Part shown: positions 13,631 through 29,437 of the stretch, piece after piece
How positions within the stretch are numbered: the first letter of the stretch is position 1
How the letters are laid out: each line of letters starts with the position of its first letter
Notes under the pieces: generated by a model
Told to the model about the DNA's origin: nothing
Seen by the model: the letters and a program-made list of their open reading frames with translations, nothing else
Database searches by the model: none
From: a virus
IMG/VR virus record: IMGVR_UViG_3300035698_001164
Location: 1-36,212 of that record
Reading direction: 5' to 3' (one strand)
Length of the DNA: 36,212 bases
Translations under genes and position numbers: made by a program

Positions 13631-14182
13631 TTATGCAGCAACCCATTGTGCTGGACATCTACCTGTGCAAGTAAGTTCGTCACCTGCGCACACAGTAAAG
13701 AACCAGCCTGCCCATGTTGGGTTAGCCTCGGTACCGGTTGTAGTTTGATCTGCTTCTAGAGTCGGTGCCGCACCATTGATGAGGATAGCCGAACGGTCAG
13801 CTAGTGCTGTATCACTGCCATCGCCGAATGGATCAATATTGCTTGAACTCCAGAAACCTGGACCTATTAACGTATTGTTTGCATCAGTGATCGCATAGTG
13901 GCCCGTCGATGCGTCGGTACTTGCTAGACCAGGTGTACTAAACCACAACGTGCCGACCTTTATCATACCCGAATTAACTGTTACACTCAGTGAGTGCTCA
14001 GTTAACTCAGTTGAACCGGTGTCTTCAAATGTCCAGGTTCCCATGACTTGATAACCTAGAAAGTCATCGTCTGCATTTCCTGCAACAACATCGCCGCTTG
14101 CTACTGTTACACCATCCCAAAGGACGGTCCAGTTTGCGTCAGCAATTTCTACTCCTAGCAGTTTTACTGTTCTCATAACCAT
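13631..14182 (-). CDS. putative virion/adhesion protein
   Basis: 183 residues, beta-rich, low in Lys, rich in Gly, Thr, Ala and Asp, as in phage structural or tail-associated proteins. The ATG at 14182 follows AGGA by 9 bases; a second ATG two codons in is possible. It shows TWTFEDTGSTELTEHSLSV and an unusual C-terminal CAGDELTCTGRC with three cysteines. It stands alone between a GC-rich inverted repeat upstream and a strong terminator downstream, so it is an independent transcription unit. It is next to the sugar island, so a receptor-interaction role is conceivable. Confidence 0.6.
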   Translation of the reverse strand: MVMRTVKLLGVEIADANWTVLWDGVTVASGDVVAGNADDDFLGYQVMGTWTFEDTGSTELTEHSLSVTVNSGMIKVGTLWFSTPGLASTDASTGHYAITDANNTLIGPGFWSSSNIDPFGDGSDTALADRSAILINGAAPTLEADQTTTGTEANPTWAGWFFTVCAGDELTCTGRCPAQWVAA

Positions 14183-26662: not shown

Positions 26663-26691
26663 ATTGTACTATATTTTATCGTTGTTGTCAA
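26663..26691 (-). promoter_or_regulatory. sigma-70 early promoter of uvsX
   Basis: Minus strand TTGACA (26691-26686), 17-base spacer, TACAAT (26668-26663). The -35 and most of the spacer lie inside the last codons of the radical SAM gene. Confidence 0.82.
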
Positions 26692-27661
26692 CTGCCAATT
26701 CCTGAATCCTCGAAATTTGTCGAAGTTTTTCTTGTTTAACAAGAAACTTATTTAATTCATCGTCGTTGTTATCTTCAATTGCTACATACGCTTCGTTGCC
26801 TTGATATCGTTTAGTCAACCAATTTGTTTTTTTGATACTTAGACAATGCGGCGTTTCGAGCAATGCATACCCATGGGGAATGCCTTTGTTTTTAGCATAG
26901 CTGATAATCTGAATTAAATTGTTTAAATTCATTGATGACAACGTTGTCCAAAAATCTAATGTTAAATTTTGATATTTTTTTTGCAAATTGATATATGAAT
27001 CAACAGTCTGCGTATAATTCTTCCATTTTACCGGCCATCTCACATAGTCATGCACATTACCGACTCCGTCAAGGCTTAAAGTTACATTAACATGAACCTG
27101 CTTGTCTAATACTTTTTCAATATTTGGCATGACTTTGTGTCCATTTGTGTTTATACGCAGGTATATCAGATTTGGAGGTAACTCTTGTAAGATTTTTTGA
27201 TAGTTTTTACTGTATGCCGGCTCACCGCCGTTTATGTCTAATTGTAAAATTCTGTCTTGCGGAAATTTTGTAAAAGCCTGATAGTTATCTCGCACAAAAG
27301 GACTTTTATTTAAACTAGCTATTCTAGTACTTAATGTTGACGAACAGCTTAAACATGCACTGTTACAGTAGGTATCTAATACTCCGCCGACAGTTAAATA
27401 CTCTGTATTTTTAACAACAAGGTCAGTGTGTCTTTTTTGAGAGAAATTTCTTATACTTTCTCTGCCGGATTCTTCTGTATCTTTACAACGTTTGCAGTGA
27501 GATGGCCACTCATTGTTAGCAAACTGAGATTGCAAAGGAACTACCCACACATCTGATTCTTCCAGAGTGTTAAATTCAGGTTGAAGAATCATATGGCCGC
27601 ATATGCCAATAGTACCATCACCGTTTACTCGCCTAAAATGTTTTAGTCTAGGGCATTCCAT
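26669..27661 (-). CDS. radical SAM protein, twitch-type (copy 2)
   Basis: 330 residues. CxxxCxxC is at C99, C103 and C106 (YCNSACLSC). DINGGEPAYS gives the GGEP motif, and VNVTLSLDGVG a beta-strand with a catalytic-type Asp. N-terminal cysteines C3, C21, C56 and C59 are spaced like those of the 711-1649 protein, so both probably carry an auxiliary cluster. The substrate is unknown. It overlaps the sulfotransferase gene by 19 bases, so the two are a pair between gp32 and uvsX. Base composition is more AT-rich than the neighbours, which fits a later insertion. Confidence 0.85.
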   Translation of the reverse strand: MECPRLKHFRRVNGDGTIGICGHMILQPEFNTLEESDVWVVPLQSQFANNEWPSHCKRCKDTEESGRESIRNFSQKRHTDLVVKNTEYLTVGGVLDTYCNSACLSCSSTLSTRIASLNKSPFVRDNYQAFTKFPQDRILQLDINGGEPAYSKNYQKILQELPPNLIYLRINTNGHKVMPNIEKVLDKQVHVNVTLSLDGVGNVHDYVRWPVKWKNYTQTVDSYINLQKKYQNLTLDFWTTLSSMNLNNLIQIISYAKNKGIPHGYALLETPHCLSIKKTNWLTKRYQGNEAYVAIEDNNDDELNKFLVKQEKLRQISRIQELAVDNNDKI

Positions 27662-28251
27662 ATTAACTTTGTGTATCCAAATGTATCTTGATAAAGCTCA
27701 CTGTAGTTTTCCTTAATTGTAGTTTGTATAGTACTAAATTCAACTGTTTGATTTAAAAAATTTTCATAAAGTGCACAATCAAGTTCAAGATAATGTTTTA
27801 GCTGATTGTTGTTGCTAAAGTATATATCTAGATCATTGTAACCTATTTGCTTATTGAGATTAATATCTGTTAAACTAGTCAATGAGTCTAAATGATTAAT
27901 TCGGATTTTAGCATTTGTAAATCTATGCAAATTTATAATCCAAAATAACTGAGGACAAAAGTGATTGTTTAGAAAGTAAACATCGTTTACAATTTTGCAT
28001 AATTCTTTTATGTCCACATTAAGTTTAAATGCATATGTTTTTATGCCAGACAAAAATCGTTGATACGGGTCTCTTACAAAGATATCAACAGTATCAAGTT
28101 GTTTAATTTCGTCAAGTGATAATGAACGTATTTTTATTTTTTCAAGTGTAGTGCTACCATTCTTGTGTATCTGATACACAAATCTGCCGTCAGGTAGTTC
28201 AATAACGTTAATTTTGTCAGGAAACAGCTTTTTATCAATTATTGATAGCAT
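27643..28251 (-). CDS. sulfotransferase-family protein
   Basis: 202 residues. The 5'-phosphosulfate-binding loop is visible as IHKNGSTTLEK (30-35 core), and the 3'-phosphate motif as IFVRDPYQRFLSG (R60, S68), the two hallmark motifs of PAPS-dependent sulfotransferases. It is shorter than most carbohydrate sulfotransferases. The acceptor could be a sugar or a peptide. It forms a unit with the radical SAM gene downstream, with which it overlaps. Very AT-rich with Asn/Ile/Leu-heavy coding, unlike gp32 next to it. Confidence 0.78.
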   Translation of the reverse strand: MLSIIDKKLFPDKINVIELPDGRFVYQIHKNGSTTLEKIKIRSLSLDEIKQLDTVDIFVRDPYQRFLSGIKTYAFKLNVDIKELCKIVNDVYFLNNHFCPQLFWIINLHRFTNAKIRINHLDSLTSLTDINLNKQIGYNDLDIYFSNNNQLKHYLELDCALYENFLNQTVEFSTIQTTIKENYSELYQDTFGYTKLIWNALD

Positions 28252-28319: not shown

Positions 28320-29309
28320 TTAGTTTGCAGCTTGTCGGCTGCGAATCATAGCAAGAATATCTTCTGCTTTGCTGCTAGGTTCAGCTGCTGCTGCCTGAGC
28401 CACTGGAGCTTCGGCTGCTGGTGCAACATCTGTCCAACCAGTATCAGTTGATGCCGATTCTGCTACTGGTGCTGCCGCTGGTGTTGCTGGTGTTGCTACT
28501 GGTGCAGATACGCCGCTGGCTGGTGCTTGCATACCTGCTGGGCGGAAGTATTGTCCCCAACGCTCTGCATCGTACGATTGACCATCAACACTAGCTTCAA
28601 ACATTTCCTTCATTACTTTGATAGCCGTTTCATCTGGGCGTTTTGGTAAGAAGTCAGCCAAGTTATACAAACCTTGCGATTCGATTGCCTCAGCTTCTGT
28701 TGCAGTAAGTGGTGTTTCTTTGCGAGCCCACTTGCTTGTCGAATAGTCAGCATATCCACCTTTAGCTGTTTTGCTAATGCGGAAGTCCAACCCACGTTCA
28801 TAGTCAGTTGGAAGTTCTTCTAGCTCTGGATCCATCAATGCTGATTTAATAGTTTGAAAGATTTGAGGACCAATAATAAAACGTCGAATTGCTTTTTCAC
28901 TGGTGTCATCCGAGATTGGGTTTTCACGTACAAAACCTTGCATGATGTATGAACGTTTTTTCCAATACTTACGACCCATGTCTTCGAGACTTTTGTCTTT
29001 AAACCATTGACGCACTTCTGTGAGAATTGGACAAGTTTCGCCCCACATTTCGATGCAAGGTACTTGTACTATAACAGTCTTACTATCCATTTGGCCTTTG
29101 ATGCCATTGAATGGAAGTTTAATCATTGCACGTTCCATCCAAAAGAACGTGTTACCATTATCCGAATCAGGAAGGAAACGTAGCACTGCGCTATCGCCTT
29201 CGTTCATATTCCAATGTGGATAAATTGCACCGTCACCGTGTGACTGGTTGTTGCCTTGCTTGTTGTCTGCCGCTGCAAGACGTGCGCGGATTTCTGCTAA
29301 TGAAGCCAT
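28320..29309 (-). CDS. 32: single-stranded DNA-binding protein gp32
   Basis: 329 residues (T4 gp32 301). The N-terminal basic helix is MASLAEIRARLAAADNK. The OB-fold core has FLPDSDNGNTFFWMERAMI and a short Cys pair C85/C93 (CIEMWGETCP), a reduced form of the T4 zinc site. The C-terminus replaces the usual acidic tail with an Ala/Pro/Val-rich linker (about 258-312) and a terminal EDILAMIRSRQ peptide. It coats single-stranded DNA in replication and recombination with UvsX/UvsY. It has its own promoter and a structured leader. Confidence 0.88.
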   Translation of the reverse strand: MASLAEIRARLAAADNKQGNNQSHGDGAIYPHWNMNEGDSAVLRFLPDSDNGNTFFWMERAMIKLPFNGIKGQMDSKTVIVQVPCIEMWGETCPILTEVRQWFKDKSLEDMGRKYWKKRSYIMQGFVRENPISDDTSEKAIRRFIIGPQIFQTIKSALMDPELEELPTDYERGLDFRISKTAKGGYADYSTSKWARKETPLTATEAEAIESQGLYNLADFLPKRPDETAIKVMKEMFEASVDGQSYDAERWGQYFRPAGMQAPASGVSAPVATPATPAAAPVAESASTDTGWTDVAPAAEAPVAQAAAAEPSSKAEDILAMIRSRQAAN

Positions 29310-29332
29310 GTTTTATTTTCCTATATGCCTAC

Positions 29333-29350
29333 GAGTAGCAACTACTACTC
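29333..29350 (-). promoter_or_regulatory. gp32 leader hairpin B, loop TAGTTG
   Basis: Minus strand GAGTAG-TAGTTG-CTACTC: a 6-bp stem with a 6-base loop, 24 bases before the gp32 ATG (29309). The loop is the same as in hairpin A. Confidence 0.7.
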
Positions 29351-29364
29351 TTTTTGATTTAACA

Positions 29365-29380
29365 ATGCGCAACTACGCAT
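29365..29380 (-). promoter_or_regulatory. gp32 leader hairpin A, loop TAGTTG
   Basis: Minus strand ATGCG-TAGTTG-CGCAT: a 5-bp stem with the identical 6-base loop, 14 bases upstream of hairpin B. The stems differ, so the loop is what is conserved. Confidence 0.7.
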
Positions 29381-29408
29381 CTGTGTATTGCTTAACGTAC
29401 ACTATACA

Positions 29409-29437
29409 AGTATACGTGCTTTTATTTAGTCCGTCAA
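29409..29437 (-). promoter_or_regulatory. sigma-70 early promoter of gp32
   Basis: Minus strand TTGACG (29437-29432), 17-base spacer, TATACT (29414-29409). It leaves a leader of about 95 bases containing both TAGTTG hairpins. Confidence 0.82.

Follow-up and report, generated by a model that had tools for sequence, protein, structure and literature searches.

The gp32 protein of bacteriophage T4 is a repressor of its own mRNA: it nucleates on a pseudoknot in the leader and from there extends across UUAAA repeats (PMC3014915, PMC535899). T4 gp43, for its part, recognizes a leader hairpin, the loop of which is conserved (PMC3014915, PMC535899). The gene 43 hairpins of T4 and RB69 vary in length between phages and keep their loop bases (PMC3014915). 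T4 relatives such as RB49 are devoid of the T4 pseudoknot, and no replacement for it is known (PMC3014915, PMC535899). How gp32, a sequence-independent binder of single-stranded DNA, chooses its own mRNA is an old open question.

In this work, we describe an alternative element in the gp32 leader of IMG/VR virus record IMGVR_UViG_3300035698_001164, of which the whole stretch analyzed, 36,212 nucleotides, is referred to as the window. Judging from sequence, its leader hairpins are very probably a docking site that controls production of the single-stranded DNA-binding protein (SSB) in a giant phage. With its strong covariation, many natural variants and a second target gene, the element opens this question to direct testing, and it is an example of a recognition element that has moved from one hairpin, and from one gene, to another. 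The features of the locus, in the order of their coordinates, are the following:

28320 to 29309, minus strand: gene downstream of the hairpins, encoding a gp32-type SSB of 329 aa
29319 to 29323, minus strand: probable Shine-Dalgarno UAGGA, from sequence, about 10 nt before the AUG
29326 to 29330, minus strand: AGGCA element immediately 3' of the proximal hairpin, conserved in the leader alignment
29333 to 29350, minus strand: proximal hairpin GAGUAG-U[AGUU]G-CUACUC, from sequence and predicted fold
29364 to 29381, minus strand: distal hairpin GAUGCG-U[AGUU]G-CGCAUU, core 29365-29380, with G-U as the outermost pair
29395 to 29417, minus strand: predicted 5' hairpin ACGUAUACU/AGUGUACGU, spanning the -10 region
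29409 to 29437, minus strand: sigma-70-like promoter TTGACG-17-TATACT, upstream of both hairpins
29423 to 29428, minus strand: TAAATA, a T4-late-promoter-like motif in the promoter spacer

The SSB matched phrog_1192 (E 4e-67) and, slightly under the cut-off of 26.8, PF08804 (24.5 bits); its identity with T4 gp32 was 22% (BLASTP, E 2e-5). A PDB sequence search gave two weak matches to uteroglobin-peptide fusions at residues 214-260, which were judged spurious. The initial annotation had placed two hairpins with different stems and an identical TAGTTG loop, 14 bases apart, between the gp32 promoter and its ATG. We confirmed both hairpins and their 14-nt spacing on the minus (mRNA) strand, and the placement was borne out by the promoter upstream and the phrog_1192 SSB downstream. 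Taken alone, the promoter sequence is not above chance (0.8 expected in shuffles), and it gains support from its recurrence in relatives. The TAAATA motif was found upstream in 130 of 163 gp32 leaders, against 26 when shuffled, and we infer that it is a late promoter. The 5' hairpin at 29395 to 29417 is the first hairpin of any transcript begun at this motif. Inverted repeats spanning the -10 region, with differing arms and beginning just past TAAATA, occur at the homologous site in many relatives, and this repeat has the appearance of a hairpin at the very 5' end of a late transcript. Between gp32 and uvsX, the window carries a radical-SAM-type ORF (phrog_14086) and an ORF with no family match (26669-28251); the two genes are adjacent in RaK2, XbC2 and Phosso.

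The direct repeat common to both hairpins is the 8-mer GTAGTTGC, which by itself is not rare (three copies in the window, 1.6 expected), and the evidence therefore rests on its structural setting. A pair of hexaloop hairpins of at least 5 bp with the same loop within 60 nt was never produced by shuffling, whether of the leader (20,000 dinucleotide shuffles) or of the window (300 shuffles); when the test was relaxed to any loop between 4 and 8 nt and to the window as a whole, such pairs appeared in 4 of 100 shuffles. Folding of the whole leader was only moderately better than shuffled (z -1.93). Of the 68 GTAGTTGC sites in gp32 leaders, 62 cap a stem of 5 bp or longer; clade (c), where the stems are paired save one or two mismatches, accounts for five of the remaining six. 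Across three whole genomes, only 8 of 74 sites cap such stems, six of the eight being the leader hairpins themselves.

The exact proximal hairpin was found in 60 IMG/VR stretches, and the hairpin was present in all of the five best gp32 relatives, chosen by protein similarity with the loop ignored. L001 and L002 join a distal stem GATACG/CGTATC to the same proximal hairpin as the window. L003 and L004 have a 10-bp distal stem, GCAAGTAATG/CATTGCTTGT or CATTATTTGT, and the loop of their 5' hairpin is replaced by the loop of the element; L005 has a single hairpin. Of 177 distinct gp32 leaders, 44 have the loop, in one, two or three copies each (three in L114) and with 22 different extended stems, 6 to 14 bp long, among them; the counts leave out the L353-type leaders, in which TAGTTG lies in a stem arm and not in the loop. 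Most leaders of the window clade share the proximal stem and others have GATGAG/CTCATC, while distal stems of relatives include GATACG/CGTATC, GATGCG/CGCATC and other compensated stems, and GGTGTG/CACACC forms a third hairpin in L114 and L141. Long stems occur in two other gp32 clades. The three clades bearing the element are separate on the gp32 tree, with loop constancy partly ascertained in clades (b) and (c), which were found via the loop. Gain and loss of the element on this tree amounted to seven label changes, at least four of them forced, a count that is inflated because the mismatch-bearing hairpins of clade (c) were labeled as lacking. This loop is absent from most of the gp32 leaders farther away (identity of about 72% or lower), indicating that the element is clade-restricted. 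Neither AGUU hairpins nor AGGCA were found in the cultured jumbo phages compared (PA5oct-like, Atu_ph07, RaK2, XbC2, Phosso and Vibrio 2.275), with gp32 up to 55% identical; the Phosso leader has one AGGCT, and most of these phages show some hairpin.

Covariation was measured on 16 distinct stems that could be aligned without internal gaps. All of their paired cells were complementary (100%, against 61% when shuffled), with 41 two-sided changes against 14, and the covariation score reached 0.914 compared with 0.215 +/- 0.048 for shuffled and 0.06-0.20 for slid versions. The proposal that a fixed loop on different stems marks a recognized element and not chance, to be tested by covarying stems and an invariant loop in related leaders, is thus supported by the shuffles, the covariation and the near-invariance of the loop: related leaders keep both hairpin and loop, and compensatory stem changes are extensive among them. 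Moreover, G-U pairs made up 48 of 449 stem pairs, the closing pair excluded, which indicates RNA on the gp32 strand. That the element acts as RNA and is recognized is well supported.

In the predicted fold, a U-G pair closes the hexaloop and leaves an AGUU tetraloop, and we favor the tetraloop description, U[(A/U)GU(U/A)]G, over that of a hexaloop. Several of our searches selected on the loop; a scan for GAGTAG-N6-CTACTCGTAGGCA, which left it free, returned TAGTTG 73 times, TTGTTG five times and TAGTAG four times, counts that include near-copies. When leaders were instead selected on the gp32 start, again with the loop unconstrained, eight of the nine distinct ones carried TAGTTG and the ninth TTGTTG. 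Sister leaders retrieved without loop selection (L008, L011, L276, L286, L301, L326, L330 and L350) have C[AGUU]G, C[AGUA]G or C[AGUG]G, and Y[(A/U)GUN]R describes all of these loops. By sequence and predicted fold, AGUU, AGUA, AGUG and UGUU all conform to the A/UGNN tetraloop pattern (a loop beginning with A or U followed by G, above a closed stem), known from substrates of the yeast RNase III Rnt1, including its occasional U at position 1 (PMC13183374). Unlike those substrates, which have a eukaryotic reader, the stems here are as short as 6-7 bp, and the near-relative genomes yielded no phage dsRBD or RNase III gene.

A second conserved component is AGGCA, the most enriched 5-mer of the gp32 leaders. 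At least two copies were present in 125 of 163 leaders, selected without use of the loop, against 4% when shuffled, and these repeats are more widely conserved than the hairpins. The leaders follow the order promoter, hairpin(s), AGGCA, spacer, AGGCA, Shine-Dalgarno and ATG, with AGGAG also enriched in relatives; in L292, a unit of about 10 nt is repeated six times in tandem, with AGGCA and AGGCT mixed. The window leader retains one clean copy, its second copy, between the hairpins, being degenerate (GTTAAAT where relatives show GTAGGCAAAT). Most gp32 leaders of the wider family have other loops with AGGCA kept, so the role of AGGCA, whatever it may be, does not depend on the tetraloop.

Within three genomes of about 300 kb, AGGCA repeats are near-exclusive to gp32 and polymerase leaders. 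Intergenic AGGCA triplets precede gp32 and, in two of the genomes, the gene of DNA polymerase III alpha (PF07733); others were found at one conserved non-coding region in two genomes and at a cluster on a small-ORF boundary in G001. A scan of gene starts, about 350 genes per genome, returned gp32, the polymerase and one partly coding match; it missed the gp32 leader of G002, which was recovered by the intergenic triplet search. Most of the polymerase III alpha leaders examined have 2-4 AGGCA copies just before the ATG, and a 42-nt piece of gp32 leader including the hairpin precedes this gene in G001, L117 and L134; the polymerase leader of G002 has AGGCA and no hairpin. AGGCA might be partly a ribosome-binding sequence, because polymerase leaders have no separate AGGAG.

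Directly after one AGGCA triplet lies a conserved stretch of about 450 nt with no large ORF on its own strand (L193, about 13690-14150; G001:133.7k), with homologues in G002 near 314.0k (minus strand) and in G003 near 256k. Searches of this stretch gave no Rfam match, no tRNA or tmRNA and no match in cultured phages, and it is a candidate for a large non-coding RNA. In L111 (2697-4391, minus strand), DNA polymerase III alpha has only 564 aa, with NTPase-like and finger domains, and adjoins a DnaB-like helicase; it is possibly a split polymerase.

The T4/RB69 gene 32 operator is similar to the present leader in gene family, in position and in having a folded 5' part followed by single-stranded repeats up to the Shine-Dalgarno. 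It differs in that one to three tetraloop hairpins are found here with no pseudoknot evident, in the repeat motif (AGGCA here, UUAAA there) and in that AGGCA also precedes the polymerase gene. Nested folding of the window leader gave hairpins only, with no conserved loop complement CAACUA nearby by eye; pairing of the loop with AGGCA or the start region, as a pseudoknot or kissing interaction, was rejected, the complement not being kept across clades by eye. UUAAA or UAAA repeats leading up to the Shine-Dalgarno were not found, a single GUUAAA lying between the window hairpins. The T4 gp32 leader contains neither AGGCA nor AGUU, which fits the earlier suggestion that this phage uses a solution different from that of T4. 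The element here is best read as a probable gp32 translational operator, analogous, not homologous, to the T4 pseudoknot plus UUAAA repeats. The T4/RB69 gene 43 operator shares a conserved-loop hairpin upstream of the Shine-Dalgarno of a replication gene, but in T4 its loop has 8 nt (by folding) and occurs in single copy on gene 43, whereas the loop here is a tetraloop that occurs repeatedly and mostly on gp32, and the polymerase concerned is of the DnaE type. The coat-protein operators of MS2 and Qbeta offer a further analogy, with a portable hairpin, a fixed loop and a largely free stem, in unrelated phages and with an unrelated loop and gene. Rfam covariance models gave no match on the window or leader up to E = 1, and a survey of open-licence papers on gp32 leaders, weak evidence of absence, returned T4/RB69 work only.

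With the same two parts in the same place as in the T4 operator, the most economical reading is that hairpins, AGGCA and ribosome-binding site form an autogenous translational operator read by gp32, a reading by analogy to which we give an even chance. Both hairpins would represent a single RNA recognition element, whose short stem is free in sequence and whose cap is the specific tetraloop U[AGUU]G (variants AGUA and UGUU, and C[AGUN]G in sisters), and the single-stranded AGGCA elements between the hairpins and the ribosome-binding site would be the second part of the operator. When in excess over available single-stranded DNA, gp32 would nucleate on the tetraloop hairpins and spread across the AGGCA-bearing single strand to the Shine-Dalgarno, blocking initiation; through its upstream AGGCA repeats, the polymerase gene may fall under the same control. 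We infer gp32 as the reader, repression as the outcome and AGGCA as the spreading site. A broader proposal, advanced tentatively and with clearly less than even confidence, is that AGGCA plus portable (A/U)GU(U/A) hairpins may constitute a new class of RNA operators in jumbo T4-like phages, by which gp32 would coordinate SSB and replicative polymerase. If so, both would share one translational switch sensing single-stranded DNA.

Another protein could read the same RNA element and thereby regulate gp32 and the polymerase together; candidates are DNA polymerase III alpha itself, a RegA-like phage repressor and a host RNA-binding protein. We consider this possible but rather doubtful. A tetraloop that keeps its shape while the stems vary typically indicates a dedicated reader, T4 gp43 does recognize a hairpin loop (PMC3014915), and the polymerase gene is preceded by a copy of the element and, more generally, by AGGCA repeats; the G002 polymerase leader, with its AGGCA and no hairpin, speaks against it. 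Genes for a dsRBD protein, RNase III (PF00035, PF14622; controls positive) or CsrA were not found in three near-relative genomes (G001-G003), and these phage-encoded readers were rejected, a host RNase III being possible. CsrA/RsmA sites are moreover centered on GGA (ANGGA in a hairpin loop), not AGUU, and the loop here is UAGUUG. Sites of the RegA type lack structure and overlap the AUG (PMC3014915), whereas the element forms a hairpin that lies some 30-80 nt before it; a search with T4 RegA gave no match, an uninformative absence since the control genomes, or the T4 clamp taken for comparison, were likewise unmatched.

A purely structural role, in which the hairpins stabilize the 5' end of gp32 mRNA or hold the leader open for ribosomes, seems unlikely. 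Nearly all gp32 leaders of the family have some hairpin here, with many loops and stems, and gp32 mRNA is required in quantity, yet such a role does not explain why unrelated stems should carry a loop that hardly varies, or why one leader should have this loop at several sites, and to our knowledge AGUU is not among the classic extra-stable tetraloops (GNRA, UUCG). Very improbable is that the inverted repeats are DNA-level features or intrinsic terminators of the opposite strand: a scan calls both hairpins terminator-like on the plus strand, with TTTTT after the proximal one, but the T run is not kept in relatives, which show CTATCATTTG at that position, G-U pairs of the gp32 strand become A-C mismatches on the other, and no convincing plus-strand gene runs into the site. 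As for a chance repeat of GTAGTTGC, suggested by the commonness of the bare 8-mer, its probability is negligible, being refuted by shuffles, covariation and conservation in the 60 IMG/VR stretches.

Other arrangements of hairpins and repeats were observed in the family. The gp32 leader of the cultured Agrobacterium phage Atu_ph07 (L476) has a hairpin, TGTAGATAATTTCTACA, followed by four CACAA-type repeats and the Shine-Dalgarno, the same hairpin-plus-repeats layout with unrelated sequence. An inverse pattern was found in L009, L016, L022, L283 and similar gp32 leaders, where a near-fixed stem, ATCTAA/TTAGAT, carries variable loops and AGGCAAC follows directly after.
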